NCBI GenBank assembly: GCA_023213315.1
Contig: JAKCPI010028533.1
Coordinates: 1-64,000 of the forward strand
DNA: 64,000 bases
From: Euborellia annulipes
Taxonomy: Eukaryota > Arthropoda > Insecta > Dermaptera > Anisolabididae
Reading direction: 5' to 3'
In this document: in pieces, positions 2,117 to 64,000 of the stretch
Position numbering within the stretch: position 1 is the first letter of the stretch
How the letters are laid out: each line of letters opens with the position of its first letter
Translations under genes and position numbers: made by a program
Notes under the pieces: model-generated
The model's database searches: none
Seen by the model: only the letters and a program-made list of their open reading frames with translations
Told to the model about the DNA's origin: nothing

Positions 2117-2250
2117 AAAAAAATCTGGTGTGACTGATCGCACAGCACAACTTTCTCTTACCTTCGGTAATCGGAAGTTATGATCTTGTCCCACCAGATT
2201 TTTTTGTGACGACATATATTTAGTTTCCGGCAATACGGTAAATTTCAAGA
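2117..2250 (+). mobile_element. Repeat A, 5' hairpin fragment
   Basis: AATCTGGTGTGACTGATCGC begins the terminal hairpin, followed by the ttaccttcggtaat loop and the returning arm. The copy breaks at 'caagatg', where a second copy begins. Confidence 0.85.
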
Positions 2251-2648
2251 TGAAAAAATCTGGTGTGACAAGCACAAAACACAACTTTCGATAAGTTGTG
2301 TTTTGTGCTTGTCACACCAGATTTTCCGGGTCGACATATATTTAGTTTCCGCCGATATATTAGAATGCAAGATGTAAAATTTATTAGCATGGGAAAATAT
2401 TTATAATTTGTGACCATGGCAACCATTTCTCCTATCTTTCCTATGAAGTACAAGAGTAAAGTGGTCAATGGCAAAATGAGGATATACATTTTAAAGAGTA
2501 TCTAAAAAATAATTGATTTTTGAATTTTAATTGTTGGAGCTAATGTTGAGGAAATTGAAAAAAACTGAAAAACTACATCAGTAAAGTACTAGTACTTTTT
2601 GGCCGATTTTGTTTAAAAGCTTCGTGTCGCCTCTTAGGGGAGGTTTAT
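2251..2648 (+). mobile_element. Repeat A, 3'-truncated copy
   Basis: The hairpin (perfect here, arms ctggtgtgacaagcacaaaac and its complement) is followed by the conserved interior, an X-box-like GTGACCATGGCAAC (2410-2423) and the palindrome AAAGTACTAGTACTTT (2583-2598). It stops after 'cttcgtgtcgcc', so the microsatellite and 3' hairpin are missing. Confidence 0.88.
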
Positions 2649-5060: not shown

Positions 5061-5447
5061 CAGGGGCGCCGGAACGGATTTGAATCAGGGGGGGCAAAAA
5101 ATTTTTTTTAGAAAATTAAAATAATTTAATATGTTCAAATAGTATAAAACAAAAACAAATCTACTATAAAACTTTAAAAATTTTAAATAAAATCACAATT
5201 TTAATAAAATTAAAATTTTGCTAGTGATTTTATCAAAAATTTTTGGAAAAAATTTGAAAAAAAATGAATTTTTTACTCTTTTAATTTTTTTAATTTAGAA
5301 GATTTTATTTTTCAAAAGAAAAAATATACCATTTTTAAAAATAAATGAAATAAAAGAATGAAATTTTGCCCCCCTCTGCCCCCCCTGTAGGATGCCAGGG
5401 GGGGGGGGCAATGTACCCTTGCCCCCCCCCCAGTTCCGGCGCCTATG
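5061..5447. mobile_element. hAT-type MITE, family hAT-1 (TSD gtcatgtg)
   Basis: The left terminus CAGGGGCGCCGGAAC and right terminus GTTCCGGCGCCTATG are inverted copies. The 8-bp duplication gtcatgtg flanks both sides (5053-5060, 5448-5455). Runs of G or C lie just inside the ends (tcagggggggc, gccaggggggggggg). There is no coding capacity. Confidence 0.93.
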
Positions 5448-5531: not shown

Positions 5532-5917
5532 CATGGGCGCCGGAACTGGGGGGGCAAGGGTACATTGCCCCCCCTGGCATCCTATAGGGGGGCAATATGT
5601 CTTCTTTTATTTTATTTATTTTTAAAAATGATATATTCTTTCTTTTGGAAAATAAAATGTTCTAAATTAAAAAAAATTAAAAGAGTAAGAAATTCATTTT
5701 TTTCCAAATTTTTTCCAAAAATTTTTGATAAAATCACTAGCAAATTTTTTTAAATTTTAATTTTATTAAAATTGTGATTTTATTTAAAATTTTTAAAGTT
5801 TTATAGTAGATTTGTTTTTGTTTTGTATTATTTGAACATATTAAATTATTTTAATTTTCTAAAAAAAATATTTTTGCCCCCCCCCCCCCCTGATTCAAAT
5901 TCGTTCCGGCGCCCCTG
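5532..5917. mobile_element. hAT-type MITE, family hAT-1, opposite orientation (TSD ggccgtaa)
   Basis: A near-identical inverse of the element at 5061-5447: CATGGGCGCCGGAAC ... GTTCCGGCGCCCCTG flanked by ggccgtaa (5524-5531, 5918-5925). Together the two copies form a ~386-bp inverted pair 84 bp apart. The spacer holds a stray hAT-like end (cagtggcggatc, 5486). Confidence 0.93.
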
Positions 5918-5993: not shown

Positions 5994-6666
5994 TTTTTAC
6001 TTTCTCTTACCTATGTATATATGTTAATATATATATAGAGAGAAAGTATTGGATTCATGTCAAAAATTCGATGTCGAGATTTTGATGGATCTTCACGTTT
6101 TGAGGTCCCCTGAATCCAAAAAAGTGGTTTTCGCGACATGGTCTGTCTGTGGGTGTGTGTGTGTGTGGGTGTGTGTTCAATTTTAAGGATGAAGGAATTG
6201 AGTTACGAGGTTGAAATTTTATATTTAAGTTAAACACCCCCCGGGACCGGAAAAATAAGCTTTTAATCAAAATCGGCCAAAGAGTACTAGTACTTTACTG
6301 ATGTACTTTTTCAGTTTTTTTCGATTTTCTCAAAATTTGCTCCAACGATTTTTTTTAAAATTCAAAAATCAATTATTTTTTAGATGCTCTTTAAAATGTA
6401 TATTCTCATTTTGCCATTGAAATCTTCTGAAGACCACTTTACTCTTGTGTTTCATAGAAAAGATAGGAAAAATGGTTGCCATGGTAACAAAATATAAATA
6501 TTTTCCCATACTTATAAATTTTACATCTGAATTCAAATGTACCGTACTGTCGGGAACTAAATATATTTCGACACGAAAAATCTGGTGTGACAAGCACAGT
6601 ACACAACTTTCGATTACCGAAGGTAAGAGAAAGTTGTGTGCTGTGCGCCAGTCACACCAGATTTTT
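5994..6666 (-). mobile_element. Repeat A, full-length
   Basis: From the 3' end: TTTTACTTTCTCTTACC with the AT hairpin, the conserved block containing tttggattcaggggacc on the minus strand, a CA-type microsatellite (6145-6175), the palindrome AAAGTACTAGTACTCT, an X-box GTTGCCATGGTAAC (6475-6488) and the 5' hairpin ending ...gtcacaccagatt. Small open frames in it are by-products. Confidence 0.92.
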
Positions 6667-7905: not shown

Positions 7906-8573
7906 TAGGGCTCGGATTTATAGGCACTAAAAATCTTTGAAATAGGCAGGCAACTAAGCACTAAAAATTATTAAAATAGGCACTTAAAAAGGCATTTATT
8001 GTAAAAATAGGCACTTAAAAAGGCACTTAAAAGGCATTATTTAAGAAATAATATAAAAAAATTTAAAAAATTGATGTCTTATTTTTGGTAATCTGGTGTG
8101 ACTGGTCGCACAGCACACAATTTTTTCTTAATTTCGGTAATTCTGTACTTGTTTGCCAGAATATAAATACAAATCAAATTTTTAAGTACTAATTTTTAAA
8201 ATTTTACATTAAAAATAATTTTTTTTTTTTTTTTTAAAGTATTTTTTTTTTCAAATCTCGGGGGGTGGGGGGTAATTACCCCCTTTACCCCCCCTTGAAA
8301 TATTTTCTTGATAATTCAAAAAAATTTTAAATTTAGGCTATGTATAGCTCGTAAAAAATTGAAATTGTCTATTTGAACTTAAAATAGGCACTAAAAAAGG
8401 CATTTATAGATGAAATAGGCACTAAAACCCAGAATCGGCCAAAATAGGCATTATAGGCACTAACAAATGCCTCTTATTTTATTCAGAATTTCATGAAACG
8501 TATACATATCATATTGGCCTAAATTTTAAGCCATAAATTAAAAAAAGGCAAATAGGGCGAAATCCGAGCCCTA
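7906..8573. mobile_element. hAT-type element with TAGGG termini (TSD gttattac)
   Basis: TAGGGCTCGGATTT and AAATCCGAGCCCTA are perfect inverted termini, flanked by gttattac (7898-7905, 8574-8581). Subterminal regions contain many direct copies of AATAGGCACTAAAA, as expected of hAT transposase-binding repeats. The middle (8088-8300) is a fragment of the hAT-2 MITE with the Repeat A head (aatctggtgtgactggtcgc) and a G run. Confidence 0.92.
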
Positions 8574-11856: not shown

Positions 11857-12946
11857 AATAAATACATCGTTTGGTATCCATTCAAAACGATAAACATAGG
11901 ATTTCCCTAAATTTTATAAAATTTTAGGATTTTTATTTTTATTATGTTGGTAGGATATAAATACATCGTTTGGTATCCATTCAAAACGATAAACATAGGA
12001 TTTCCCTAAATTTTATAAAATTTTAGGATTTTTATTTTTTTTTATGTTGGTAGTATGTAAATACATCGTTTGGTATCCATTCAAAACGATAAACATAGGA
12101 TTTCACTAAATTTTATAAAATTTTAGGATTTTTATTTTTGTTATGTTGGTAGGATGTAAATACATCATTTGGTATCCATTCGAAACGATAAAGATAGGAT
12201 TTCACCGAATTTTATAAAATTTTAGGATTTTTATTTTTGTTATGTTGGTAGGATGTAAATACATCATTTGGTATCCATTCAAAACGATAAACATAGGATT
12301 TCACCAAATTTTATAAAATTTTAGGATTTTTATTTTTGTTATGTTGGTAGGATGTAAATACATCATTTGGTATCCATTCAAAACGATAAACATAGGATTT
12401 CACCAAATTTTATAAAATTTTAGGATTTTTATTTTTGTTATGTTGGTAGGATGTAAATACATCATTTGGTATCCATTCAAAACGATAAACATAGGATTTC
12501 ACCAAATTTTATAAAATTTTAGGATTTTTATTTTTGTTATGTTGGTAGGATGTAAATACATCATTTGGTATCCATTCAAAACGATAAACATAGGATTTCC
12601 CTAAATTTTATAAAATTTTAGGATTTTTATTTTTGTTATGTTGGTAGGATGTAAATACATCATTTGGTATCCATTCAAAACGATAAACATAGGATTTCAC
12701 CAAATTTTATAAAATTTTAGGTTTTTTATTTTTGTTATGTTGGTAGGATGTAAATACATCATTTGGTATCCATTCAAAACGATAAACATAGGATTTCCCC
12801 AAATTTTATAAAATTTTAGGATTTTTATTTTTGTTATGTTGGTAGGATGTAAATACATCATTTGGTATCCATTCAAAACGATAAACATAGGATTTCACCA
12901 AATTTTATAAAATTTTAGGTTTTTTATTTTTGTTATGTTGGTAGTA
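11857..12946. repeat. 99-bp satellite, 11 tandem copies
   Basis: The anchor tggtatccattc occurs at 11872, 11971, 12071, 12170, 12269, 12368, 12467, 12566, 12665, 12764 and 12863. All spacings are 99 bp except one of 100 bp. The unit contains the AT palindrome AAATTTTATAAAATTT and ends tttttgttatgttggtag. Copies differ at a few sites, e.g. atcgttt versus atcattt, with the former confined to the first three units. Confidence 0.97.
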
Positions 12947-14005: not shown

Positions 14006-14265
14006 CAAGGGCGGATACAGGGTGGGGTAAAGGAGGTAATTACCCCCCCCCTGAGATTTAAAAAAATACTTTTTTCGAAAAAAAAATTTATTTTTTAATG
14101 TAAAATTTTAAAAATTAATACTTGAAAATTTGATTTGTATTTATATTCTGGCAAACAAGTACAGAATGCGCCTTTAAATTGCCTAAATTAAGAAATTGTG
14201 TGCTGTGCGACCAGTCACACCAGATTACCCCCCCCCCCCGAGAAACACCTCTGGATCCGCTCTTG
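14006..14265. mobile_element. hAT-2 MITE (TSD gccttgat)
   Basis: CAAGGGCGGATACAGGG ... CTCTGGATCCGCTCTTG flanked by gccttgat (13998-14005, 14266-14273). C runs sit just inside both ends. The right half includes the reverse complement of the Repeat A head (gaccagtcacaccagatt). Confidence 0.92.
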
Positions 14266-19532: not shown

Positions 19533-20229
19533 AAAAATCTGGTGTGACTGGCGCACAGCACACAACTTTCTCTTACCTTCGGTAATCGAAAGTTGTGTAC
19601 TGTGCTTGTCACACCAGATTTTTTGTGTCGACATGTATTTAGTTCCCGGCAGTAGGGAATATTTGAATTCAGATGTAAAATTTATAAGTATGGGAAAATA
19701 TTTATATTTCGTAACCATGACAACCATTTCTCCTATCTTTCCTATGAAGCACAAGAGTAAAGTGTGCTTCAAACAATTTTGAGAGCAAAACGAGAATATA
19801 CATTTGAAAGAGCATCTAAAAAATAATTGATTTTTGAATTTTAATCAAAATCGTTAGAGCGAATTTTGAGAAAATCGAAAAAAACTGAAAAAGTACATCA
19901 GTAAAGTACTAGTACTCTTTGGCCGATTTTGATTAAAAGCTTATTTTTCCGGTCCCGGGGGGTGTTTAACTTAAATATAAAATTTCAGCCTCATAGCTCA
20001 ATTCCTTCATGCTTAAAAGTGAACACAGACACACCCACCCACACACCCACCCACCCACCCACCCACCCACCCACAGACAGACCATGTCGCGAAAACCACT
20101 TTTTTGGATTCAGGGGACCTCAAAACGTGAAGATCCATCAAAATCTCGACATCGAATTTTTGACATGAAACCAATACTTTCTCTCTCTATATATATATTA
20201 CATATATACATAGGTAAGAGAAAGTAAAA
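19533..20229 (+). mobile_element. Repeat A, full-length (CACCC subtype)
   Basis: Starts at the hairpin and ends GGTAAGAGAAAGTAAAA. The microsatellite is (CCCA)n-rich (20030-20075). The X-box position reads GTAACCATGACAAC, one base off consensus. The body uses the 'cggtcccggggggtgtttaac' subtype. Confidence 0.93.
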
Positions 20230-24429: not shown

Positions 24430-24506
24430 TATGTACTGTCAATTTAAATAAATAGAGACGGAGTCTAAATGGCATTCGATGCCGAAAAAGACCTTAAATA
24501 AAAAAA
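24430..24506 (+). mobile_element. SINE-B tail
   Basis: 'aaataaatagagacggagtctaaatggcattcgatgccgaaaaagacctt' followed by A-rich sequence: the 3' half only. Confidence 0.7.
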
Positions 24507-24523: not shown

Positions 24524-25008
24524 AAAAAGCTGTTGAACGTCACCCGGAAGTCATCTATAATTGGAATTTTAAAAATATAGAAATTCATATGTCAAGAGCG
24601 GATCCAGAGTAGTTATTCCCCCTCCGGGGAAGTAATCCGGTGTGAATGGTCGCACAGCAGACAACTTTCTCTATCGGTAATTTAAAGTTGGTTTCAGTAC
24701 TTTATATACAAATCAAATTTTGAAGAATTAATTTTTAAAATATTATAATACAAATAAAATTTAATTCCCAAAAAATATTTTTCTCAAATTTCTCTTCCTG
24801 TATCCGCTCTTGTCATATGAAAAGTCTTGGCAACAACATGCCAAAAAAAACTATAGATTAAAAAATATTTCCTTTTGTTTGAGTTTAAAATAGTAAAGAG
24901 TGATGAATTCATTCAGGAAACTCTACGGGGCCAAAAGTTAGAAAAATTCCAAAAGAAACGAGGAAAATATATAAAAAGTACTAATTATGAAATTTCACAA
25001 CCTATATC
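24524..25008. repeat. Segmental duplication, copy 2 (with MITE)
   Basis: The counterpart of 23934-24216, about 590 bp downstream in the same orientation, carrying a 220-bp hAT-2 MITE plus its duplication. Both copies continue to 'gaaatttc(c/a)caacct'. Confidence 0.85.
24593..24812. mobile_element. hAT-2 MITE (TSD tcatatgt/tcatatga)
   Basis: CAAGAGCGGATCCAGAG ... GTATCCGCTCTTG, flanks matching 7 of 8. The paralogous duplication without the insert confirms the boundaries. It contains the Repeat A head (aatccggtgtgaatggtcgc). Confidence 0.92.
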
Positions 25009-28000: not shown

Positions 28001-28675
28001 AAAATCTGGTGTGACTGGCGCACAGCACACAACTTTCTCTTACCTTCGGTAATCGAAAGTTATGTTCTGTGCTTGTCACACCAGATTTTTTGTGTCGACA
28101 TGTATTTAGTTTCCGACAGTAGGGTACAATTGAATTCAAGATGTAAAATTTATAAGTATGGGAAAATATTTATATTTTGTTACCATGGCAACCATTTCTC
28201 GTATCTTCCCTATGAAATACAAGAGTAAAGTGGTCTTCAGAAGATTTCAATTGCAAAATGAGAATATACATTTTAAAGAGAATCTAAAAAATAATTGATT
28301 TTTGAATTTAAAAAAAAATCGTTGGAGCAAATTTTGAGAAAATCGAAAAAAACTGAAAAAGTACATCAGTAAAGTACTAGTAATCTTTGGCCGATTTTGA
28401 TTAAAAGCTTATTTTTCCGGTCCCGGGGGGTGTTTAACTTAAATATAAAATTTCAACCTCATAGCTCAATTCCTTCATGCTTAAAATGGAACACACACAC
28501 ACACACCCACCCACCCACCCACAGACAGACCATGTCGCGAAAACCACTTTTTTGGATTCAGGGGACCTCAAAACGTGAAGATCCATCAAAATCTCGACAT
28601 CGAATTTTTGACATGAAACCAATACTTTCTCTCTATATATATATTACATATATACATAGGTAAGAGAAAGTAAAA
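28001..28675 (+). mobile_element. Repeat A, full-length, inserted in the hAT frame
   Basis: Hairpin start, perfect X-box GTTACCATGGCAAC (28179-28192), palindrome, CACCC microsatellite, core and 3' hairpin with GGTAAGAGAAAGTAAAA. The host frame on either side joins in an A run without a recognisable duplication. Confidence 0.95.
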
Positions 28676-28750: not shown

Positions 28751-29049
28751 TCAATTCTACACAGCCACTTTCTACATTAAATTCTCATTAAAAATTTCAA
28801 GTAAATTCGTTTTTCTGTTCTTTTCTTGTTTGTTTTTATTTTCCATTAAAATTTGTATATAAAATTTTTACTTTTTTTTAAATTTTATATTTTTTGATTC
28901 TAATGTTTATTATAAATAAAGTTTTGTAAATTATTAATAAGTGTTACTTTATGTGCAGCCCGCCAAAAAATTTTAAAATATAAATTAGCCCGTTGATTAA
29001 AAAGGTTGCTCACCCCTGATGTAGACTATAATATAATTTTTTTTTTTAA

Positions 29050-29125
29050 TTTCATTTAAAGTCTTTTTCGGCAGCGAAGGCAATTTAGACCCCGTCTCTA
29101 TTTATTTGGTAGCCAATTCAATTGA
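29050..29125 (-). mobile_element. SINE tail, split by Repeat A
   Basis: The SINE-B type tail (tctttttcggcagcg, gaccccgtctctatttattt) reaches 'caattg'. The head continues after Repeat A at 29796 as a SINE-A-like tRNA portion, so one element was probably split. Confidence 0.6.
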
Positions 29126-29795
29126 AAAAAATCTGGTGTGACTGGCGCACAGCACACAACTTTCTCTTACCTTCGGTAATCGAAAGTTGTGTACTGTGCT
29201 TGTCTCACCAGATTTTTTGTGTCGACATGTGTTTAGTTTCCGACAGTACGATACATTCGATTTTCAAGATGTAAAATTTATAAGTATGGGAAAAAAATAT
29301 TTATATTTTGTTAACATGGCAACCATTTCTCCTATCTTTTCTATGGGGTACAAGAGTAAAGTGGTCTTCAGAAGATTTCAATCACAAAATGAGAATATAC
29401 ATTTTATCGAGAATCTAAAAAATAATTGATTTTTGAATTTAAAAAAAAATCGTTGGAGCAAATTTTGAGAAAATCGAAAAAAACTGAAAAAGTGCATCAG
29501 TAAAGTACTACTACTCTTTGGTCGATTTTGTTCAAAAGCTTCGTGTCACGTCCCATGGGGGTGCCTAACTTAAATATAAAATTTCTACCTCCTAGCTCAA
29601 TTCGTTCTTGAGATATTTTGTTCACAGACAGATACACACACAGACAGACCATGTCGCGAAAACCACTTTTTTGGATTCAGGGGACCTCAAAACGTGAAGA
29701 TCCATCAAAATCTCGACATCGAATTTTTGACATGAATCCAATACTTTCTCTCTCTATATATATTAACATATATATAGAGGTAAGAGAAAGTAAAA
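29126..29795 (+). mobile_element. Repeat A, full-length (CAGA subtype)
   Basis: Complete from hairpin to GGTAAGAGAAAGTAAAA. The microsatellite has CAGA/CACA units (29625-29650). The X-box is mutated to GTTAACATGGCAAC. Confidence 0.95.
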
Positions 29796-31332: not shown

Positions 31333-31551
31333 TATCGTCCCATGATTGATGTAACTGTAATAAAAACAAAAAATTTTATAGTTAAATAAAAATATAATTA
31401 ATATTTATTAGATAGAGCTTAGTTGGTAAAATAATTAATATGTAAGGTTATAAAATGCCTTAATGGGAATATCGTCCCGTTTAGGATTAAAGAATTGCCA
31501 AATGTGCCTGGTTTTTTTATAGTAATTAATATTTTGCATAATATACTTGTA

Positions 31552-32639
31552 CAGTGGGCGCCAAAAGTGCCTGATCTGCCTTGAGCTTAGGCAGCCAAAA
31601 TACACAGCGGTCGGAGGAGTTGCGTTAAAAATAGATACGCCCCTTCAGTTGCATTAAAAGAGATTATTTATTTATTTTAAAAATATTTATGAATTCTAAA
31701 ATATTTTTCTAAATTTCTTCACAGATTAAAAAATCTGGTGTGACTGACGCACAGCACACAACTTTCTCTTACCTTCGGTAATCGAAAGTTGTGTACTGTG
31801 CTGTCACACCAGATTTTTTGTGTCGACATGTATTTAGTTTCCGACAGTACGGTTCATTCGATTTTCAAGATGTAAAATTTATAAGTATGGCAAAATATTT
31901 ATATTTTGTTACCATGGCAACCATTTCTCTCATCTTTTCTATGGAGTACAAGAGTAAAGTGGTCTTCAGAAGATTTCAATGACAAAATGAGAATATACAT
32001 TTTAAAGAGAATCTAAAAAATAATTGATTTTTGAATTTAAAAAAAAATCGTTGGAGCGAATTTTGAGAAAATCGAAAAAAACTGAAAAAGTGCATCAGTA
32101 AAGTACTAGTACTTTTTGGTCGATTTTGTTCAAAAGCTTCGTGTCACGTCCCATGGGGGTGCCTAACTTAAATATAAAATTTCAACTTCCTAGCTCTTTT
32201 CGTTCTTGAGATATTTTGTTCACGGACACACACACACACACACAGACAGACAGACAGACAGACCATGTCGCGAAAACCACTTTTTTGGATTCAGGGGACC
32301 TCAAAACGTGAAGATCCATCAAAATCTCGACATCGAATTTTTGACATGAATCCAATACTTTCTCTCTATATATATTAACATATTAATAGAGGTAAGAGAA
32401 AGTAAAAAAAAATTTCATAATTAAATTCTAGCAAAATATGAGAAAAAAGTTTTAATTTTATTTCATTTAATATAGAAAAAAAATATTTTATAATTCATAA
32501 ATATTTTTAAAATAAATAAATATTCTCTTTTAATGCAACTGAAGGGGCGAAGCTACTTTTAACGCAACTCATCCGACCGCTGTGCATTTTGGCTGCCTAT
32601 GCTCAAGTCATCGAGATCAGGCACTTTTGGCTCCCACTA
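31552..32639. mobile_element. Tc1/mariner-like foldback MITE (TA target)
   Basis: CAGTGGGCGCCAAAAGTGCC at the left, and the right end complementing AGTGGGAGCCAAAAGTGCC, bordered by TA dinucleotides (31550-31551, 32640-32641). The ends remain complementary for about 150 bp. Repeat A is inserted near the centre. Confidence 0.75.
31728..32408 (+). mobile_element. Repeat A, full-length (CAGA subtype)
   Basis: Hairpin, X-box GTTACCATGGCAAC (31908-31921), AAAGTACTAGTACTTT, CACA/CAGA tract (32221-32261), core and 3' hairpin. Nested in the Tc1-like MITE. Confidence 0.95.
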
Positions 32640-32790
32640 TACAGTACCTATTTACATATTTTATCGTTTAGAAGCCTTTCAGGCTTATAATGCAGTAAAT
32701 AATAAAATAAATAGGCCTAATAATATATATTAAACTGAGAAAAATAGAAGTAGGATTAATTAAGTAGTAATTAGTTTTTAAATAATTTCC

Positions 32791-33150
32791 ATTTTTACTT
32801 TCTCTTACCTATGTATATATGTAATATATATATATATAGAGAAAGTATTGGATTCATGTCAAAAATTTGATGTCCAGATTTTGATGGATCTTCACGTTTT
32901 GAGGTCCCCTGAATCCAAAAAAGTGGTTTTCGCGACATGGTCTGTCTGTGGGTGGGTGGGTGTGTGGGTGTGTGTTCAATTTTAAGCATGAAGGAATTGA
33001 GCTACGAGGTTGAAATTTTATATTTAAGTTAAACACCCCCCGGGATCGGAAAAAAAGCTTTTAATCAAAATCGGTCAAAGAGTACTAGTACTTTACTGAT
33101 GTACTTTTTCAGTTTTTTTCGATTTTCTCAAAATTTGCTCCAAAGATTTT
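32791..33150 (-). mobile_element. Repeat A, 5'-truncated (CACCC subtype)
   Basis: Present from the 3' hairpin to 'ttgctccaaagattttttt'. It then joins the 3' end of a second copy in the same orientation, forming a partial tandem. Confidence 0.93.
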
Positions 33151-33152
33151 TT

Positions 33153-33808
33153 TTTTACTTTCTCGTACCTCTATATATATGTTAATATATAGAGAGAGAA
33201 AGTATTGGATTCATGTCAAAAATTCGATGTCGAGATTTTGATGGATCTTCACGTTTTGAGGTCCCCTGAATCCAAAAAAGTGGTTTTCGCGACATGGTCT
33301 GTCTGTGTGTCTGTGTGTGTGTCTGTCTGTGTGTGTGTCTGTGAACAAAATATCTCAAGAACGAAAAGAGCTAGGAAGTTGAAATTTTATATTTAAGTTA
33401 GGCACCCCCATGGGACGTGACACGAAGCTTTTGAACAAAATCGACCAAAGAGTACTAGTACTTTACTGATTCACTTTTTCAGTTTTTTTCGATTTTCTCT
33501 AAATTTGCTCCAACGATTTTTTTTTTAATTCAAAAATCAATTATTTTTTAGATTCTCTATAAAATGTATATTCTCATTTTGTCATTGAAATCTTCTGAAG
33601 ACCACTTTATAGGGAAGATAGGAGAAATGGTTTCCATGGTAACAAAATATAAATATTTTCCCATACTTATAAATTTTACATCTGAATTCATATGTTCCGT
33701 ACTGTCGGGAACTAAATATACGTCGACACAAAAAAATCTGGTGTGACAAGCACAGAACACAACTTTCGATTATCGAAGGTAAGAGAAAGCCAGTCACACC
33801 AGATTTTT
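33153..33808 (-). mobile_element. Repeat A, full-length (CAGA subtype)
   Basis: Complete from the 3' hairpin to the 5' hairpin, though the 5' hairpin arms are shortened at 33780-33790. The X-box is GTTTCCATGGTAAC, one mismatch. Confidence 0.93.
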
Positions 33809-35734: not shown

Positions 35735-36050
35735 GGTGGAGAGAATTTTGAGAAAATTGAAAAAAAAAAACTAATAAAGTACATCAAAAAAGTACTAGTA
35801 CTTTTTGGCCGATTTTGTTCAAAAGCTTACTTTGAGTGTCCGGGAGGGTACCTAACTTAAATATAAAATTTCAATCCGGTAGCTCAATTCCTTTATGCAA
35901 AAAATCGTTACACACAGACCAATTTGTGAGACCCATTTTTTTGGACTCAGGGGACCTCAAAACGTGTATATCGATCAAAATCTCGACATCGAATTTTTGA
36001 CATGATCGCAATACTTTCTCTATTTATTTCATATCTAAGAGAAAGTAAAA
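35735..36050 (+). mobile_element. Repeat A, 5'-truncated, diverged
   Basis: From 'ggagagaattttgagaaaattg' through a shortened microsatellite to a diverged AT hairpin ending aagagaaagtaaaa. A solo 3' end (tagggtaagagaaagtaaaa) follows at 36071-36091. Confidence 0.85.
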
Positions 36051-36216
36051 ATGGTTATAAGAAAAAATATATAGGGTAAGAGAAAGTAAAAACGCTTTAC
36101 CGGAGGTTATTTACCAGAAGGGCGTTTTTTATATTATTAACAACAGCTTTAGGAAATTTTTGAATTTTGATATTTACTATATTAGAGTTCAGAAATTAAT
36201 TTGTTTTTGTTTATTG

Positions 36217-36874
36217 AAAAATCTGGTGTGACTGGCGCACAGCACACAACTTTCTCTTACCTTCGGTAATCGAAAGTTCTGTTCTGTGCTTGTCACACCA
36301 GATTTTTTGTGTCGACATGTATTTAGTTTCCGACAGTACGGTACAAGATGTAAAATTTACAAGTATGGGAAAATGTTTATATTTTGTTACCATGGCAACC
36401 ATTTCTCCTATCTTTTCTATGGAGTACAAGAGTAAAGTGGTCTTCAGAAGATTTCAATCACAAAATGAGAATATACATTTTAAAGAGCAACTAAAAAATA
36501 GTTGATATATGAATTTTAAAAAAAATCGTTGGAGCAAATTTTGAGAAAATCGAAAAAAACTGAAAAAGTGCATCAGTAAAGTACTAGTACTTTTTGGCCG
36601 ATTTTGTTCAAAAGCTTCGTGTCACGTCTCAGGGGGTGCCTAACTTAAATATAAAATTTCAACCTCCTAGCTCTTTTCGTTCTTGAGATATTTTGTTCAC
36701 AGACAGACAGACACACAGACAGACAGACCATGTCACGAAAACCAGTTTTTTGGATTCAGGGGACCTCAAAACGTGAAGATCCATCAAAATCTCGACATCG
36801 AATTCTTGACATGAATCCAATACTTTCTCTCTATATATATATTACATATATACATAGGCAAGAGAAAGTAAAAA
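36217..36874 (+). mobile_element. Repeat A, full-length (CAGA subtype)
   Basis: Complete, with X-box GTTACCATGGCAAC (36386-36399), a CAGA tract (36700-36728) and a 3' end ggcaagagaaagtaaaa. Confidence 0.95.
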
Positions 36875-40153: not shown

Positions 40154-40429
40154 CAAGGACGGATCCGGAAGTGTTTCTCAGGGGAGGGGGGGGTAATCTG
40201 TTGTGACTGGTCGCACAACACACAATTTTTTTCTTAATTTCGGTAATTTAAAGGGGCATTCTGTACTTGTTTGCCAGAATATAAATACAAATCAAATTTT
40301 TAAATATTAATTTTTAAAATTTTACATTCAAAATAATTTTTTTTTTTTTTCGAAAAAATAGTATTTTTTTCAAATCTCGGGGGGAGGTAATTACCTCCTT
40401 TACCCCCCCCCCCCTTGTATCCGCCCTTG
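40154..40429. mobile_element. hAT-2 MITE (TSD aatcgaca)
   Basis: CAAGGACGGATCCGGAAG ... GTATCCGCCCTTG flanked by aatcgaca (40146-40153, 40430-40437). It contains the Repeat A head (aatctgttgtgactggtcgc) and G/C runs near both ends. Confidence 0.95.
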
Positions 40430-43162: not shown

Positions 43163-44238
43163 CAGGGCCGTCTTAAGAAATTCGGCGCCCGTGGGCTACT
43201 AGAAATAACGCGCCCCTCTTCCTAAGAAAATACACAGAATGGCAAATGGGAGCGGGGTGTCCGGAAAGGTTATACAAAAGTGTCAGAACTAGAAAAAATC
43301 TATTTATTACTTTTATACTAAACAAAAATAAAATTTAATTAAATCAAAAAACATTTAAGAAGAAAAACAATATTTTAAGAAAGTGTTTTAATTTAAAAAA
43401 AAAATCTGGTGTGACTGGCGCACAGCACACAACTTTCTCTTACCTTCGGTAATCGAAAGTTGTGTACTGTGCTTGTCTCACCAGATTTTTTGTGTCGACA
43501 TGTATTTAGTTTCCGACAGTAGGGTACAATTGAATTCAAGATGTAAAATTTATAAGTATGGCAAAATATTTATATGTTGTTACCATGGCAACCATTTCTC
43601 CTATCTTTTCTATGGAGTACAAGAGTAAAGTGGCCTTCAGAAGATTTCAATCACAAAATGAGAATATACATTTTAAAGAGCATCTAAAAAATAATTGATT
43701 TTTGAATTTAAAAAAAAATCGTTGGAGCAAATTTTGAGAAAATCGAAAAAAACTGAAAAAGTGCATCAGTAAAGTACTAGTACTCTTTGGCCGATTTTGA
43801 TTAAAAGCTTCGTGTTACGTCCCATGAGGGTGCCTAACTTAAATATAAAATTTCAACCTCCTAGCTCTTTCTGTTATTGAGATATTTTGTTCACAGACAC
43901 ACAGACAGACACACAGACAGACAGACAGACCATGTCGCGAAAACCACTTTTTTGGATTCAGGGGACCTCAAAACGTGTATATCCATCAAAATCTCGACAT
44001 CGAATTTTTGACATGAATCCAATACTTTCTCTCTCTATATATATTAACATATATATAGAGGTAAGAGAAAGTAATAAGTAAAAACTAATAAAATGAAAAA
44101 TGAATTTTTATAAAACTAATAAATAAATGACTAATAACTAAATAACTAATAAGAACAAAAAAATATAGATATTGCCGCCCCAAAAGGCTTGCGCCCTGGG
44201 GCTATAGCCCATTTAGCCCTGTGTTTAGGGCACCACTG
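43163..44238. mobile_element. hAT-type element, weak termini, perfect TSD cttacagc
   Basis: CAGGGCCGTCTTAAG at the left and GGGCACCACTG at the right share only the outer bases, but cttacagc flanks both (43155-43162, 44239-44246). It contains 'cggcgcccgtgggc' and 'gccgccccaaaagg', and a Repeat A insertion. Confidence 0.75.
43397..44074 (+). mobile_element. Repeat A, full-length (CAGA subtype)
   Basis: Reference-quality copy: 5' hairpin to ~43490, X-box GTTACCATGGCAAC (43579-43592), palindrome near 43773, CACAGACA tract (43894-43930), core, and AT hairpin ending gaggtaagagaaagt. Confidence 0.95.
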
Positions 44239-46400: not shown

Positions 46401-46562
46401 ATGTTATTAATGTGACTCTGACTCAATTCATTTCTATTAAATTAAAGTGTTGTTAGGCAAATCAAACAAACAAGTCCACAATTATCAAATGAGAGTTATT
46501 ATAATTAATTTAAATCATTAAAATAAAATTTAGTTTATATGGCCTATAAATAAGATCGAGTG

Positions 46563-48976: not shown

Positions 48977-49124
48977 ATACAAATAAATGTATAATGATTG
49001 AGATTTAAAAAAAAAAGCCTCCATTGAACCAGAAGAAACAGAGTAAATTTAGAATTTACATTAAATGGGAAATGTAAGATCCTGGGTTCGATTCCCGAGA
49101 ATCAATCAGGAGGCGACAGTTGTC
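48977..49124. repeat. B-box-bearing SINE scrap
   Basis: 'gtaagatcctgggttcgattcccgag' (49075-49100) has a canonical T-arm/B box GGGTTCGATTCC but no A box or cloverleaf. Confidence 0.4.
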
Positions 49125-49395
49125 CAGGTCGGATACAGGGGGAGTAAAGGGGGTAATTGCCCCCCCCCCCCCGAGATTTGGGAAAAATATTTTTTTTTTG
49201 AAAAAAAATTTATTTTTAATGTAAAATTTTAAAAATTAATAGTAAAAAATTTGATTTATATATATATATATATTCTGGTAAACAAGTACAGAATGCTCCT
49301 TTAAATTACCGAAATTAAAAAAAAATTGTGTACTGTGACCAGTCACACCAGATTACCCCCCCCCCCCCCGAGAAACTTCTCTGGATCCGCCCTTG
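49125..49395. mobile_element. hAT-2 MITE (TSD cagttgtc/tagttgcc)
   Basis: CAGGTCGGATACAGGG ... CTGGATCCGCCCTTG, flanks matching 6 of 8. Same structure as 14006-14265, with the Repeat A head in its right half. Confidence 0.85.
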
Positions 49396-54065: not shown

Positions 54066-54271
54066 TTAAGAGGGTATTTTACTTATAGTAAGAATTTCTT
54101 CTACTGTTTCTTTTTTCTCTATCAATTTTATAGGTGGCAAAGGCCTAATTTTTCTTCCGTGACGTCCTTCTTTACGGTGCCATAAACCTGAACGAGGCCT
54201 ATAGCCTAAATAACGTAGATTTTGAGCACTACCTATATGCTCATCTTGATGACCAATATTAGATGTTCGTC
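54066..54271 (-). CDS. MRPL2: MRPL2 exon 4 (C-terminus and stop)
   Basis: The exon lies behind a poly-T tract and the acceptor tctag after an 87-bp intron. It starts GA CGA ACA, giving GRTSNIG across the junction, then the basic tail with [19 protein letters not shown], and stops at TAA (54068-54066). The frame fits only this splice choice. Confidence 0.93.
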
Positions 54272-57200
54272 CTAGAAAAAAAAAAAGATTATTGTGAAGA
54301 TAAAAAAAAATGTGTAAAGGAGAGTAATGATAATAATAGAAATATATAAATTACACACCAACAACAGCCATACATTCTTGAGGCAATGAAACTTGATGTT
54401 TCGAAGGAAGTTGAATAATAGCTCTATCATTTTCTTTTTTCATTAAGATTGCAGAACTTCCAGCACTTTTAGCATAGAATCCACCTGTTCCAGGATACTT
54501 TTCCACCGACATTACTCTAGTACCAAGTGGAAGAGCTCCAAGAGGATATGCATCACCTTCATTAGCTCGAACTAAGTAAAGCATATAGAAATATATATAT
54601 ATTAATTAATAACTAGACAGAATAAAAGTGAAAAAAGACAAATTTTAAGCAAGAAAATTTTGAAGGAAAAATATATTGAATTGTAAGCAAAAAAAAAATT
54701 AAATTTTTATTAATTTTTTCCAATTTCAATGTATATCCATCAAAATCTCGACATCGAATTTTTGACTTGATCGCAATACTTTCTCTCTCTATATAATACA
54801 TATATAGATAAGAGAAGGTAAAAAGGTTAAGGAGCACTGGTCTATATATATAAAAGGAAGTCGCAATTCTGTCTAATAGATACCTTTTTTTTTTTTAAGA
54901 AACTAAACTTGTTCGAATATGACTATTTAATAAATAATAATCTTTCTAATTATTTACAGAATATAATATTTTAATAATCACCAGGAATCCTTGGTATATA
55001 AGAGGAAGTTTTTATAATATCTCCAGGTTTCATATTTTCGGTCGCAACAATGTATTTTAATTTATCTTTAACGCCAACCAAAGCAACAAATCCAGTCCGA
55101 CATCCTCCTTTAAAAACTTCTAAGACTTTCTCTTCTAAAGGTGGCTGGTCGTCTTTTGGCCCTTGTCGAACTGTATCGATCCATTGATATTTTTGCTTTA
55201 TTCCGCCACCAATTCCTTTATGAACCACTCGACCTATTATAAAAAATAAGCCTTGTTTTATAACAATATACAAATAATTTAATTAGTAATCAAATAAATT
55301 CCTGATGAAAGGGAGAGGGACGACAATATTATTGACTTTTACAATAAATTGGAGGCGAAGTAATCTGAAATTTGAAAATTTATTTGTAGGTAGGTATATT
55401 CAGTGAATGTTAAAACATCTCCATGTGATTATTTCTTTGTTTTTTTTTTTTAAATTTGAAGAATCTTTAATAGAAACTTTTGTAATTTAAACAGAGCACA
55501 AGATTCTAATAGATTTCATCATTTTGAAATAATCACATGAGAGAAGGCATGTGTTTGAATATTTTAACTTGGGTGATTTTTTAATATAATCACATAAAGG
55601 CAGATAACATACACATGTGATAATTTTTGATAAATTTTAGCAAAAACCAACCAAGATTATTCAAAAAACTATTTTTCCCCAATAAAAGACGCTGGTAATA
55701 TGTTAAAAAATCTAATCTAGGCTTCTAAACAAGTAGAAATTTTATATAATTAAAAAAAAAAAACAGATTTATGAAAAATATAGCCTATATATATATATAT
55801 TTACATATGAGAAATTTTATTAAAAGCAATCAAAGTTATTCAAAGTATTTTTCCCAAATAACAGATGCTGATAATATGTTAAAAAATTTAATCTAGTCCT
55901 CTAAAGGAGTAGGAATTTTATTTAATTGAAAAATAGTAAATGAAATTTAGATATGAAAAATTTTATCAAATTTTATTAAAACCACTTGAGGTTCTACAAA
56001 GAGAGTATACCTACTTTCCCATTAATAAACGTTAATACTATATTAAATAATCTAGTCTCGACTTTGAAAGAAGTAAAAATTTTATATAATCACAAAAATG
56101 CAGATAACATAGACATATGACTATTTTTGATAAATTGTAGCAAAACCAACCAAGATTATCTAAAAAAAACTATTTTATCCAAATAACAGACGCTGGTAAT
56201 ATGTTAAAAAATCTAATTTGGTTCTCTAAAGAAGTAGGAATTTTATTTAATCAAAAAATTAAAAATGACATTTAGATATGAAAAATGTTATCAAATTTTA
56301 TTAAAACCACTTTAAGTTCCTCAAAGAGAGTATATTTCCCAATTAATAAACGTTAATACTATATTAAATAATCTAGTCTCGGCTTTGAAAGAAGTAAAAA
56401 TTGTATATAAAGACAAAAATGCAGATAACATAGATATATGACTATTTTTGATAAATTTTAGCAAAATTGTTAAAAGAAACTATTTTTCCCAAATAGAAAA
56501 CGCTGATACTATGTTAAAAAATCTAATTTGGTCCTCTAAAGAAGTAGAAATTTTATATAATAAAAAAAAAAATCAGATTTATGAAAAATATAGCCTATAT
56601 ATATATATATATATATATTTACATATGACAAATTTTATTTAAAGCAATGAAAGTTATTCAAAGTGAGTATTTTTCCGAAATAATAGATGCTGATAATATG
56701 TTAAAAAATTTAATCTAGTCCTCTAAAGAAGTAGGAATTTTATTTAATCAAAAAATAGTAAATGACATTTAGATATGAAAAATTTTATCAAATTTTATTA
56801 AAACCAATGGAAGTTATTCAATGAGAGTATTTTTCCCAATTATTAAACATTAATACTATATTAAATAATCTGGTCTTGGCTTGGAAAAAAGTAGTAATTT
56901 TATATATTCAAAAAATAGCAAATGACATTTAGATATGAAAGATTTTAGCAAATTTTATTAAATCCAAGGAAAGTTATTCAATGAGAGTATTTTTCCCAAT
57001 TATTAAACATTAATACTATATTAAATAATCTGGTCTTGGCTTGGAAAAAAGTAGTAATTTTATATATTCAAAAAATAGCAAATGACATTTAGATATGAAA
57101 GATTTTAGCAAATTTTATTAAATCCAAGGAAAGTTATTCAATGAGAGTATTTTTCCCAATTATTAAACATTAATACTATTTTAAATAATCTGGTCTTGGC

Positions 57201-60200
57201 TTCGAAACATGTCAAAATTTTATATAATCAAAATATAGAAAATGTCATTTACATATGAAAGATTTTATCAAATTTTATTAAATCCAAGGAAAGTTATTCA
57301 ATGAGAGTATTTTTCCCAATTATTAAACATTAATATTATATTAAATAATCTGGTCTTGGCTTGGAAAAAAGTAGAAATTTTATATATTCAAAAAATAGCA
57401 AATGACATTTAGATATGAAAGATTTTATCAAATTTTATTAAAACCAAGGGAAGTTATTCAATGAGAGTATTTTTCCCAATTATTAAACATTAATACTATA
57501 TTAAATAATCTGGTCTTGGCTTGGAAAAAAGTAGAAATTTTATATATTCAAAAAATAGCAAATGACATTTAGATATGAAAGATTTTATCAAATTTTATTA
57601 AAACCAAACAAAGTTCCTCAAAGAGAGTATTTTTCCCAATTAATAAACGTTAATAATATATTAAATAATCTAGTCTCGGCATTGAAAAAAGTAAAAATTT
57701 TATATAGTCACAAAAATGCAGATAATATAGATATATGAATATTTTTGATAAATTTTTGCAAAATCAACCAAGATTATATAAAGAAACTATTTTTCCCAAA
57801 TAAAAGACCCTAATAATGTGTTAAAAAATCTAATCTAGTCTTCTAAACAAGTAGAAATTTTATATAATTAAAAAAAAAAATCAGATTTATGACAAATATA
57901 GTCTATATATATATATATTTACATATGACAAATTTTATTAAAAGAAATCAATGTTATTCAAATTGAGTATTTTTTCAAATAACAGACGCTGATAATATGT
58001 TAAAAAATCTAATCTAGTGCTCTAAAGAAGTAGGAATTTTATTTAATCAAAAAATAGTAAATGACATTTAGATGTGAAAAATTTTATCAAATTTTATTAA
58101 AACCACTTGAAATTCCTCAAAGAGAGTAATTTTTTCAATTAATAAACGTTAATACTATATTAAATAATTTGGTCTCGGCTTGGAAAAAAGTAGAAATTTT
58201 ATATAATCACAAAAATGCAGATAACATAAATATATGAATATTTTTGATAAATTTGAGCAAAACTAACCAAGATTAACTAAAAAAAACTATTTTATCCAAA
58301 TAATAGATGCTGATACAATGTTAAAAAATCTAATCTGGGCCTCTAAAGAAGTAGGAATTTTATTTAATCAAAAATTTGAAAATGACATTTAGATATGAAA
58401 AATTTTATCAAATTTTATTAAAACCAAACAAAGTTCCTCAAAGAGAGTATATTTCCCAATTAATAAACTTTAATACTATATTAAATAATCTAGTCTCGGC
58501 TTTGAAAGAAGTAAAAATTTTATATAATCACAAAAATGCAGATAACATAGATATATGAATATTTGTGATAAATTTTAGCAAAACCAACCAAGATTATTAA
58601 AAGAAACTATTTTTCCCAAATAAAAGACGTTGATAATATGTTAAAAAATCTAATCTGGGCCTCTAAAGAAGTAGGAATTTTATTTAATCAAAAAATAGTA
58701 AATGACATTTAGATATGAAAAATTTTATCAAATTTTATTAAAACAAAGCGAAGTTCTTCAAAGAGAGTATATTTTCCAATTAATAAACGTTAATTCTATA
58801 TTAAATAATCTAGTCTCGGCTTTGAAAGAAGTAACAATTTTATATAATCACAAAAATGCAGATAACATATACATATGCCTATTTTTGATAAATTGTAGCA
58901 AAACCAACCAAGATTATATAAAAAAACTATTTTTCCCAAATAACGACGCTGGTAATATTTTAAAAAATCTAATCTAGTCTTCTAAACAAGTAGAAATTTT
59001 ATATAATTAAAAAAAAATCAGATTTATGACAAATATAGCCTGTATACCTATATATACATATTTACATATGACAAATTTTATTAAAAGCAATCAAAGTTAT
59101 TCAAAGTGAGTATTTTTCCCAAATAACAGACGCTGATAATATGTTAAAAAATCTAATCGAGTCTTCTAAAGAAGTAGGAATTTTATTTAAACAAAAAATA
59201 GAAAATGACAATTAGATATGAAAAATTTTATCAAATTTTATTAAAATCAAACAAAGTTCTTCAAAAAGAGTATTTTTCCCAATTAATAAACGTTAATACT
59301 ATATTCAATAATCTAGTCTCGTCATTGAAAGAAGTAAAAATTTTATATAGTCACAAAAATGCAAATAATATAGACCAGTGGTTCCCAACCTTTTTTGACC
59401 CATCGCCCCTTTCTGGAGGTTGACTAACACCTATCGCCCCCCCCCCCTTTACATTTTCATTGTATACCTAATTATAATTTGAAGTAAAGTGTAAATAATA
59501 AAGCTGTTTTATTATTTTAAACAATTTTATTACCGTAGGCCTATATACAGGGCCGCAGACCGACTTGACAGGCCCCGGAGCTACTTAGTAATACTTAGTA
59601 ATACCCCCCCCCCAAAAAAAAAAAAAAAAAAGTTTTTTTTTTTAGTATATAAAAGGCCATTGTGGCCTTCATGGCAACAATTTTTTACACAGTTTTTGAC
59701 ACAACTTTTGAAATAGTTATTCATAGCTTACAATATTTATTTAAATAAAGTTATATAAAATTTTTTCAAAATTTCCTAAACAAAGAGTTACAAAGTTTTA
59801 ATTTATCGAGGCCAGATCTGGGCAGAGGAATTCCGGGGGAATCTGGGGATATGGAAAATTTTTTGAAAATTAGCCACTGAAATCTGCATTTTTAGCTATC
59901 CTGAGTCGTGAAAAAGACTAAACTTGATTTGAGCTTAAAGGGCCCGGGCCCTGAAGAAAAAAATTTCAAGAAAATGATTTTTTTAATTGAAATTTTAAGA
60001 TTCGAGCTTAAAGAGCCCGAAGGCTCCCATGAAAAAAATTTCAAAAAAATGATTTTTTTAAATTGAAATTTAGAATTTGAGTTAAAAGTGACGTTTCAAA
60101 TCTAGATTGGAATTATCTTCAGACTATTTTATTTTTATGATAATATTTTATCTTCTTCTATCCTGACCATCCTGTAAATAGGAGATTTTTCTTTTTTTAA

Positions 60201-63200
60201 ATTTTAGTAAATAATTTTTTCTCCCTTTGAATACTCATCGCCCCCCAATCGCCCCCCGCTTATTTATCGCCCCCCTGAAAACCCAAATCGCCCCCAGGTT
60301 GGGAACCACTGATATAGACATATGACTATTTTTGATAAATTTTTGCAAAATCAACCAAGATTATTTAAAGAAACTATTTTTCCCAAATAAAAGACCCTGA
60401 TAATATGTTAAAAATCTAATCTAGTCTTTTAAACAAGTAGAAATTTTATATAATATAAAAATATAAGTTATTACAAATATAGACTATATATAGAGATATA
60501 CCATGTATATATATATATATATATTTAAAGATTTACATATGACAAATTTTATTAAAAGCAAAGTTATTCACAGAGAGTATTTTTCCCAAATAATAGACGT
60601 TAATAATATATTAAATAATCTGGCACAGTGAGGGACAATATTAAGTCCCACCCATGCGTTTTCTACTTGTGATTATTTCATTGGTTTAAAAAAAAAAATT
60701 ATATATTTTTTTAATTGATACTTTCTTTATTCAAATCATAGAAAATTTCCAATAAAGATTTTCAAAAATAATAAAAACAAAACTAATAAAATTGAAATAA
60801 TTGAAGCTACTCTAGATAAAAATGAAACTATTCCTGAACAAACGATAAATAATGAGGTGAATGAAAATGAAAATGAGATTGCTCCAGTGAAGGAAGAAAA
60901 TTTTCATGAGGAAATTCCTGCAAATGAAGAGGAAACAACAGTTCCACCAGAGAGCTAACAACGAAGTCGGAAACGACCTACCCGTCTATGGACAAAAGAT
61001 TATGAAATGACATTGAAATGTGAAATGATGTCAATCAATGAAATGGTTGAAAATCAGGATGAGTCTGAAAACAAATGGAAAAGAAGAGATTAAGGCTCAC
61101 TTAAAAAATAATAAGTAGATTTTAGTTAAAAATGGTGAAAACTCAAATATAATAGATTTAAAAATGGTACTGAAAGAAAAATTAAAACCGAATGGTGAAC
61201 TTGAAAGAAGAAAAGATTCGCTTCAGTTGTTAAATTAAGTTCCATAAGATTTCTTTTAGGATTAGCAGTCGAAGAAAATATGAAAATCCATCAGATGGAT
61301 GTTTCTACAGCCTTCCTAATGGATAACTAGAAGAAACTTTATATGGAAGTTCCCAAAAGCCTTAATAAATATTTAAACGAAATAATAATAGAAAAGTGTG
61401 ACAAAAACGATAAAACAGTATTATTAAATGCGAGGAATGCTTGAAGACTTCAAAAGGAATAAAGATAATGTCTGTCTTTTGTAAAAGGCACTTTACGGTC
61501 TCAAACAATTAGGCCGTCAGTGGTTTATCAAATTAGACCACAAAAACAGAAACTAAATTTGAAACCGTCCAGTTACTGATCAATGCATTTATTCCTCAAC
61601 TAAAAAGACAAGATAATTGTTGCTGTCTACGTTGACCATATTTTGATCGCCTGCACGAATGAATCAAGAATAAATCAATTAAAAAAGAGTTTAGCATTGT
61701 CTTTTGAAATGAGGGACTTAGGCGAATTACATTATTGTCTAAGAATTATGTTCTCTCGAGAAAATGACGGATCTATAAAAATCAATCAAGAGAAATACAC
61801 TCAAGAGTTATTAATAAAATATAAAATGGAAAATAGCAAGACAGTGCTTACACCTCTTGAACCCTGAGTAAAGTGAGAAAAAAATGAGTTAAAAAAGGAA
61901 GATAAAAATATACCCTATCAAAATCTAATTGACAGTCATGGCTACCTGGCAGTAGCAACGCGTCCAGACATTGCCCATCTGGTAAGCTACTTAAGCCAGT
62001 TCAACAAAAATTTTGACAAAAGTCATTGGATGGCTGCAAAAGGGGTTTTACAATACCTAAAATACACAAAAAATGTGTCTCTTCAGTTTGTCAAAACAAA
62101 TAAAAAAGTAATAACTGGATTTTTGCGACGCAGATTGGGCAAGCTGTACGGTTGACCGTAGGTCATTTACGGGGTACTGCTTCAAGTTTGCAGGAGGAGC
62201 CGTCAGCTGGGAGACCAAAAAGCAGAAGACTGTGGCACTCTCTACAGCTGAGGCTGAGTATATGTCCTTAACAGAAGCAGCTAAAGAGGCTATCCATCTG
62301 AAACAGCTGGCAAAAGATATGGGATTAGGGTGTAACACAATAACCATGGGCGTAACTAGGAGGGTGAGCTAGGATGGCTGATCCTATGCCCCCCCCCCCC
62401 CCCAGCCAAATTCTCACTCATGGTTGCAATGCAACTCTTCAAATTACTGACCAGACGTCAGGATTTCTTCAACTTCATTTTTCATATATTTTCTATGCAA
62501 TGGCTATATATATATAATTTTTTTTTGGTATTTTAATTTAGACCTCATCTTTATTTGTTTCTTGTTTGGTAGCCAAATGAAATTAAAAATTTTTTGTTAT
62601 TTGTGAAGAGAATGAGACTCCAAACCCCTAGGATAAGAAGCAATTACTCTACATATCTGTAAAAAGACCCAGGAGTGTAACTAATCTTAAAGTTGTTTTT
62701 GACAAAATGTATTAACTAAATCCTAAGTTTTCTTGAGAGCTATCATTTCCAGATATACTCCTATTAGTATTATTGATTTTTTAATGATATATATATATAT
62801 ATATAAGTAGGTGTATAGTAATAATAATATAGAATGTTAATTTAATTTTTAGGATATTGACTAGGATAATAAAAGATAAATATGTAAAAGAATTAATATA
62901 TAATACAAATAAAATATTAAATAAATGATAATATATAATAAAATGTATTTATAAACACAAAATTGCCTAACTTTTTAAAGAAAATAAGTTGTTACTAGCA
63001 ATATAGGATACATATCAAAATATAATGAAAAAATACCTGTTTTGGGATCTCTCCCAGCTAAATTAGTTGTTTTTAGGGGCTGAACTGTATATTCTTCAGG
63101 GTAATGGACTATTCTCCATAGACATTGACTGCCTGGTGAAGGTAATTTCAATCTTGGCTTATTTCTAACACTTGTAATCAATATTTTAGAAAGTTTATGA

Positions 63201-63760: not shown

Positions 63761-64000
63761 AAAAATCTGGTGTGACTGGCGCACAGCACACAACTTTCTC
63801 TTACCTTCGGTAATCGAAAGTTGTGTTCTGTGCTTGTCACACCAGATTTTTTGTGTCGACATATATTTAGTTCCCGACAGTAGGGTACAATTGAATTCAA
63901 GATGTAAAATTTATAAGTATGGGAAAATATTTATATTTTGTTACCATGGCAACCATTTCTCCTATCTTCCCTATGAAATACAAGAGTAAAGTGGTCTTCA
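63761..64000 (+). mobile_element. Repeat A, cut by window end
   Basis: Full 5' hairpin, following block and X-box GTTACCATGGCAAC (63940-63953). It continues beyond the window. Confidence 0.95.

Follow-up and report, generated by a model that had tools for sequence, protein, structure and literature searches.

Results

The window, by which we mean the whole 64,000-nt stretch of DNA analysed, has a G+C content of 30% and four stop-to-stop open reading frames (ORFs) of at least 120 aa, and about 14% of it matches one repeat family that is present as eight full-length copies and fragments. The family was delineated by BLAST, using the segment 43399-44080 as a query against the window itself. At an E-value of 1e-6, this search yielded 29 blocks of matches spanning 8,937 of the 64,000 bases, and merging of blocks less than 120 bp apart gave 26 groups. 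Four of these (8090, 14155, 24634 and 49274) consist of hairpin pieces only and belong to a different, hAT-like repeat, as does part of a fifth (40195-40270). Among the 22 groups left, eight contain a full-length copy and the others are fragments (Table 1). The element that an earlier note had placed at 43397-44074 is real; the note's description of over 20 copies with a common plan overstates the count, the plan being complete in the eight full-length copies.

These copies measure 654-695 nt and are 88-96% identical to one another over gap-free columns. They form two subfamilies, one comprising c28000, c5994 and c19533 and the other the remaining five, and the divergence between them, as judged by eye, is greatest from the microsatellite to AAGCTTTT. 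Allowing up to two mismatches, GGTAAGAGAAAG matches the window 40 times against 5.95 expected (none of 100 shuffles reaches 40) and AATCTGGTGTGAC matches it 38 times against 0.64 expected (shuffle maximum of 3), counts to which one full copy can contribute several matches. Two 5′ subTIRs of like orientation, spaced by 41 nt, occur at 36050-36091; an older relative of the family starts with the second one.

Table 1. Features of the repeat family in the window, with the number of T flanking each full-length copy
Feature	Position	Strand	T before 5′ subTIR	T after CCAGA	Basis
Full-length element of the earlier note (c43399)	43402..44076	- (sense = minus strand)	2	10	BLAST family, alignment, termini
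5′ subTIR ACTTTCTCTTACC, 13 nt	44060..44072	-			motif and termini comparison
Inverted repeat AGAGAAAGT, pairs with 5′ subTIR (5′ hairpin)	44024..44032	-			DNA fold
GTCY-type microsatellite (GTCTGTCTGTCTG...)	43893..43930	-			repeat scan, alignment
Long terminal palindrome, 3′ end	43399..43491	-			DNA folds
Opposite palindrome arm CTTTCGATTACC, imperfect partner of 3′ subTIR, GA/GA mismatch	43448..43459	-			folds
3′ subTIR GGTAAGAGAAAGT in palindrome, exact inverted copy of 5′ subTIR	43432..43444	-			motif, folds
Small stem-loop GTGTGCTG..CAGTCACAC, directly after 3′ subTIR	43409..43430	-			fold of string shared by this copy
Terminal T-run, 10 T	43395..43404	-			termini comparison
Full-length copy (c5994), second subfamily	5995..6664	+	6	10	BLAST, alignment
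Full-length copy (c19533), second subfamily	19535..20229	-	6	5	BLAST, alignment
Full-length copy (c28000), second subfamily	28002..28675	-	5	5	BLAST, alignment
Full-length copy (c29126), within dispersed repeat with empty paralogues in window	29129..29795	-	5	7	BLAST, alignment
Full-length copy (c31728), between arms of 165-bp inverted repeat	31731..32407	-	9	6	BLAST, alignment
Full-length copy (c33152), in T-run of another copy; 3′ palindrome lacks 14 nt	33153..33806	+	10	10	BLAST, alignment
Full-length copy (c36217)	36219..36873	-	5	5	BLAST, alignment
5′ part of the recipient of the 33153 copy	32793..33152	+			BLAST
Abutting pieces of two copies, one with perfect 33-bp hairpin and 3′ subTIR lost	2118..2627	-			BLAST, fold
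3′ part of copy, cut by window end	63761..64000	-			BLAST

Once reverse-complemented, the full-length copies read as a T-run, the subTIR ACTTTCTCTTACC, an inverted repeat, a core, a GTCY microsatellite, the 3′ subTIR, a small stem-loop, CCAGA and a second T-run. We make no claim of a likeness between this core and that of Drosophila DINE-1, for which a text search with four DINE-like strings gave no match. The 5′ side of DINE-1 and HINE elements is described as a terminal subTIR, an adjoining inverted repeat and a microsatellite (PMC2374699, PMC7492417), the end subTIR or ATIR of DINE-1, HINE and Helitron2 elements pairing with the neighbouring inverted repeat, and the 3′ side of published elements as an internal repeat adjoining a stem-loop (PMC2374699, PMC3627910, PMC7492417). 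Since the terminal subTIR, the inverted repeat and the microsatellite sit at the end that the earlier note had called 3′, we take the element polarity to be the reverse of the one proposed there. This assignment follows published convention: 5′ and 3′ labels are arbitrary for elements without ORFs (PMC2374699), and the Rep/helicase of some relatives lies in the opposite orientation (PMC3627910, PMC4067079). The CAGA/CA/CCCA tract listed in the earlier note is present, and folding confirmed both of the hairpins that it described, the one of about 90 nt and the AT-rich one, with their placements exchanged by the same convention.

The AT-rich hairpin is thus the 5′ hairpin. It forms between the 5′ subTIR, found at element positions 5-17 (exact in six of the eight full copies and with one substitution in two), and the inverted repeat AGAGAAAGT, which lies at positions 43-46 and folds with the subTIR in all eight. 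Its predicted stability is -15.5 kcal/mol (z -7.5; none of 200 shuffles as good), and it is weaker in another copy (-8.4 kcal/mol). At 13 nt, the subTIRs agree with the DINE/HINE description of 11-15 bp repeats, of which the 5′ copy starts within 0-4 nt of the terminus and the 3′ copy is internal; the distance to the 5′ end here varies with the number of T counted as element. The microsatellite ranges in form between GTCT-rich and GGTG-rich and occupies the 5′ side in all eight full copies, each with GTCTGTC at element position 145-148.

GGTAAGAGAAAG stands near the 3′ end of all eight full copies. The 13-nt 3′ subTIR is separated from the T-run by 27 nt in seven of them, c33152 lacking 14 nt there. 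It is followed by the stem-loop GTGTGCTG-tgcgc-CAGtCACAC and then CAGATTTTT. This small stem-loop lies inside the long palindrome and agrees, modestly, with the stem-loop of DINE/HINE elements: its fold of -5.7 kcal/mol was equalled by 5 of 200 shuffles (by 14 of 200 once the subTIR was added), and the folded string is unchanged in six of the eight full copies and deleted in c33152. Together, the 3′ subTIR and the small stem-loop fit an ordinary HINE 3′ end. What comes in addition is an upstream segment complementary to the whole 3′ end, the two forming about 39 pairs. The resulting hairpin of ~85-93 nt folds at -35.1 kcal/mol (z -11.6; none of 200 shuffles as good), and among 13 aligned hairpins nine fold at -33.7 to -37.9 kcal/mol and four deleted or divergent ones at about -20 to -22 kcal/mol. 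It contains CTTTCTCTTACC, the exact complement of the end GGTAAGAGAAAG, as had been noticed earlier. The earlier remark on an unusual 5′ hairpin is upheld in its size, which exceeds the ranges in the cited papers, and revised in that the structure is the 3′ terminus joined to its own inverted copy on the upstream side.

In the consensus, the two subTIRs form 13 pairs with each other and no mismatch (-13.7 kcal/mol), whereas pairing of the 3′ subTIR with its own arm is interrupted by a GA/GA mismatch (12 pairs, -9.2 kcal/mol). Because the pairing is perfect with the 5′ partner and mismatched with the arm, these sequences suggest that the 5′ partner, and not the hairpin, maintains the sequence of the 3′ subTIR. 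The alignment of hairpins contains no compensatory change at any of 33 pairs of the long stem, and a second covariation test gave 0 of 39 pairs, with a score reached by 466 of 500 shuffles; selection on the stem therefore lacks covariation support. In this second test, 94.4% of cells are paired by the proposed stem and 36-50% by slid versions of it, the stem having been derived from one of the aligned sequences. Its basis is single-sequence folding together with conservation. In the fragment at 2253, a perfect 33-bp hairpin is present and the subTIR has vanished, resembling the outcome of copying one arm from its partner; this would fit fold-back copying as the source of the palindrome.

T-runs flank the full-length copies at both ends. 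At least four T precede the 5′ subTIR in seven of the eight (3.7% of window positions as background) and at least five follow CCAGA in all eight (background of 1.9%), in keeping with the T-rich insertion of DINE/HINE elements. The further ends compared, those of fragments and more distant relatives, had been located with patterns that contain T and are biased; the counts given here are those of the eight full copies.

The copy at 29129-29795 lies within a dispersed repeat, several members of which lack the copy and represent empty paralogues. Both sides of the site are present in three members, at 1297-1399 (a BLAST alignment crossing the junction) and near 1009 and 42302 (by eye), and the members at 24446, 48766 and 50009 match one side only. 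The joined flanks carry T5 + T7 (T12) where the three members read TTTATTT (two) or TTTATT (one), with matching sequence on both sides; this single comparison thus reveals about five extra T and no duplicated non-T sequence. The lack of target duplication claimed earlier is accordingly supported at one site, outside the T-run, while within it the extra T may belong to the element or reflect a duplication of T alone. The same ambiguity over the sharing of T between ends is described for HINE insertions, and in Culex HINE the T were taken as part of the element (PMC4067079). The copy at 33153-33806 sits in the T-run of the copy at 32793-33152, which does not make a clean empty site, as the rest of that receiving copy is absent beyond the inserted one; in both nested cases (33153 and 2253) one target side only remains.

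A search of 30 of the window's 80 ORFs of at least 75 aa against Pfam (E-value of 0.01) detected no Rep, helicase or DDE transposase domain; many, though not all, of the other 50 overlap element copies. These 30 ORFs gave two matches to ribosomal L2 domains and single matches to RVT_2 of copia type and, below the Pfam cut-off, to RhopH3_C. The L2 N and C domains mark fragments of the host gene for mitochondrial ribosomal protein L2, on the minus strand (54066-55282). Three ORFs joined by eye served as an L2 query that matched 779 proteins, and in the best 120 of these 779 the named top matches are insect mitochondrial L2 (59-67% identity), the crustacean Moina also being present. On this basis the host is most likely an insect. 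A 5′ fragment of the element (54730-54825) lies inside these gene pieces, apparently in an intron. RVT_2 (61604-61867) belongs to a copia-type retrotransposon remnant at 61604-62372. Exact pattern scans of viral contigs and prokaryote genomes and a distant BLAST of phages recovered nothing, and these searches say little about insects because the collections are viral and prokaryotic. Viral contigs were also compared at the protein level with one window ORF, which gave no relative.

The window holds further repeats. A hAT-like MITE with termini like CAAGRGCGGATCCAG occurs at 14006-14265, 24593-24812, 40154-40429 and 49124-49395, with an internal match at 8087-8297; its 8-bp flanking duplication is exact at 14006 and 40154, matches at 7 of 8 positions at 24593 and is not obvious at 49124. 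Its internal hairpin is 77-79% identical to the HINE 3′ hairpins, and the retention of AGAGAAAGTTGT by the 24593 copy suggests capture of a HINE 3′ end by this MITE. A 165-bp inverted repeat (31548-31708 and 32479-32643; 91% identical) holds a full HINE copy between its arms and is probably a foldback or MITE element with the HINE in its loop. An inverted pair at 5061-5218 and 5752-5917 (93%) lies 77 nt outside the copy at 5995. The dispersed repeat around the 29129 copy, recognized by a GGTCTTTTTCGGCATC...CCATTTAGACCCC block (999-1094, 1297-1399, 29030-29128, 42302, 48766 and 50009), is possibly a SINE; a stretch in the other flank of that copy, tRNA-like by eye, recurs at 46561, 30942 and 44681, and ARAGORN reported no tRNA. 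Tandem repeats comprise a minisatellite at 11859-12944 (99-bp unit, 11 copies, 97% matches) and a satellite-like array of about 20 diverged copies of a 160-bp unit (55580-59410).

Discussion

The plan of the family matches those published for DINE-1/HINE and Helitron2-type elements (PMC2374699, PMC4067079, PMC3627910), and we assign it with high confidence to the non-autonomous rolling-circle transposons of the Helentron/Helitron2 branch, as a DINE/HINE type. The Helentron/HINE-like class proposed in the earlier note therefore fits the structural features that we tested, in the opposite polarity. Canonical Helitrons (Helitron1), with 5′-TC and 3′-CTRR ends and insertion at A/T, are ruled out by ends that read T(n)ACTTTC and CCAGAT(n).

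Drosophila DINE-1/INE-1 is described as having 13-nt subTIRs, one terminal and one internal, an inverted repeat beside the 5′ subTIR, a GTCY microsatellite, a stem-loop after the 3′ subTIR, T-rich insertion and no significant ORF (PMC2374699, PMC4067079), all as in the present family. The subTIR given for D. melanogaster (ATACCCGTTACTC) differs from ours, the 3′ stems quoted for DINE-1 are 7-11 nt long against about 39 pairs enclosing the subTIR here, and a central tandem-repeat array was not seen in the eight full copies. The HINEs known from Metaseiulus and Culex likewise have 12-15 bp subTIRs, a 3′ palindrome and variable terminal T-runs, and no target modification was found in those reported (PMC4067079); the mite palindromes cited are 5-10 bp, far shorter than ours, and the mite 3′ subTIR lies 38-60 bp from the end, against 27 nt plus the T-run. 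The lepidopteran Hel-2 shares a 5′ inverted repeat, subterminal inverted repeats, a (CTGT)n microsatellite and a 3′ hairpin with our family, but has 5′-TC/3′-CTRR termini with A/T flanks that are absent here (PMC4344730).

Within this class, we regard it as somewhat unlikely that the family is a strict non-autonomous Helitron2, whose partner has no endonuclease, rather than a Helentron derivative. Helitron2 elements have hairpins at both ends, a 5′ ATIR paired downstream, a 3′ ATIR 20-30 bp from the end and insertion after TTTT (PMC3627910). These features are also found here, with ATIRs inside the described range of 8-15 bp, the 3′ ATIR lying inside the long hairpin and not only upstream of one. 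Helitron-1N1_CRe and Fusarium FoHeli1/2 share the hairpins and ATIRs, and FoHeli1/2 moreover end in ATTTT with the 3′ repeat itself in a hairpin (PMC5148889), but the Helitron2 hairpins quoted are short and their partners known, unlike in our case (PMC3627910, PMC5148889). The inverted repeat with a GTCY microsatellite is instead the DINE-1/HINE plan (PMC2374699, PMC7492417), and the termini of the Helitron2 and Helentron groups overlap and are non-decisive.

Two explanations outside the rolling-circle elements were weighed. A MITE with subterminal inverted repeats, moved by a DDE transposase and making a short T-only target duplication, would also be short and non-coding with inverted repeats; the flanking T-runs could be a TTTTT duplication, c28000 and c36217 having exactly five T at each end, and about five T were gained at the one empty site. 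Yet the repeats are asymmetric, one at the end and the other about 30 nt inside, the T-runs of the eight full copies vary (2-10 at 5′ ends and 5-10 at 3′ ends), and the inverted repeat, the microsatellite and the 3′ palindrome are DINE/HINE features, making this origin very improbable. Even less credible is a SINE or other retroposon in the orientation of the earlier note, in which copies end in AAAGT followed by A-runs that would be poly-A tails: A-runs also precede the other end, the one empty site has no non-homopolymer duplication, and in the window ARAGORN found no tRNA gene and Rfam no match at gathering score, although a diverged head could escape both.

For the favoured Helentron/Helitron2-type element, published models lead us to infer that a Rep/helicase encoded elsewhere would nick at the T-run, that one strand would be peeled off from the 5′ subTIR and end at the 3′ palindrome, and that this strand would then be joined to T-rich target sequence. 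Pairing between the two subTIRs would open the 5′ hairpin and mark the end, as proposed for Helitron2 (PMC3627910). The long 3′ palindrome itself is best seen as an ordinary HINE 3′ end with an inverted copy immediately upstream, probably generated by fold-back or template-switch copying.

We also considered a model in which the palindromised 3′ terminus locks the subTIR, the 5′ hairpin, the 3′ hairpin and the subTIR-subTIR pairing being competing states that would regulate the rolling-circle stop. The better pairing of the 3′ subTIR with the 5′ subTIR than with its own arm agrees with such a model. We find it rather doubtful all the same: the whole 3′ hairpin (-37.3 kcal/mol) by far exceeds the duplex of the two subTIRs in stability, both hairpins persist when the end regions are cofolded, and the absence of compensatory changes in the stem weakens it further. 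Repeats within short hairpins or overlapping palindromes are already published for Fusarium and Chaetomium elements (PMC5148889). A 3′ palindrome as long as this one found no match in the parts of the Helentron literature that we covered, Repbase and supplements lying outside that scope, and its length together with the enclosed subTIR is the main departure from the cited papers as far as these parts go.

In summary, the window provides a high-copy HINE-type family with mapped ends and one empty site, and its corrected polarity decides where a partner should be sought. The long 3′ palindrome would be a naturally occurring variant of what is presumably the terminator, and may offer a handle on how rolling-circle elements define their end.
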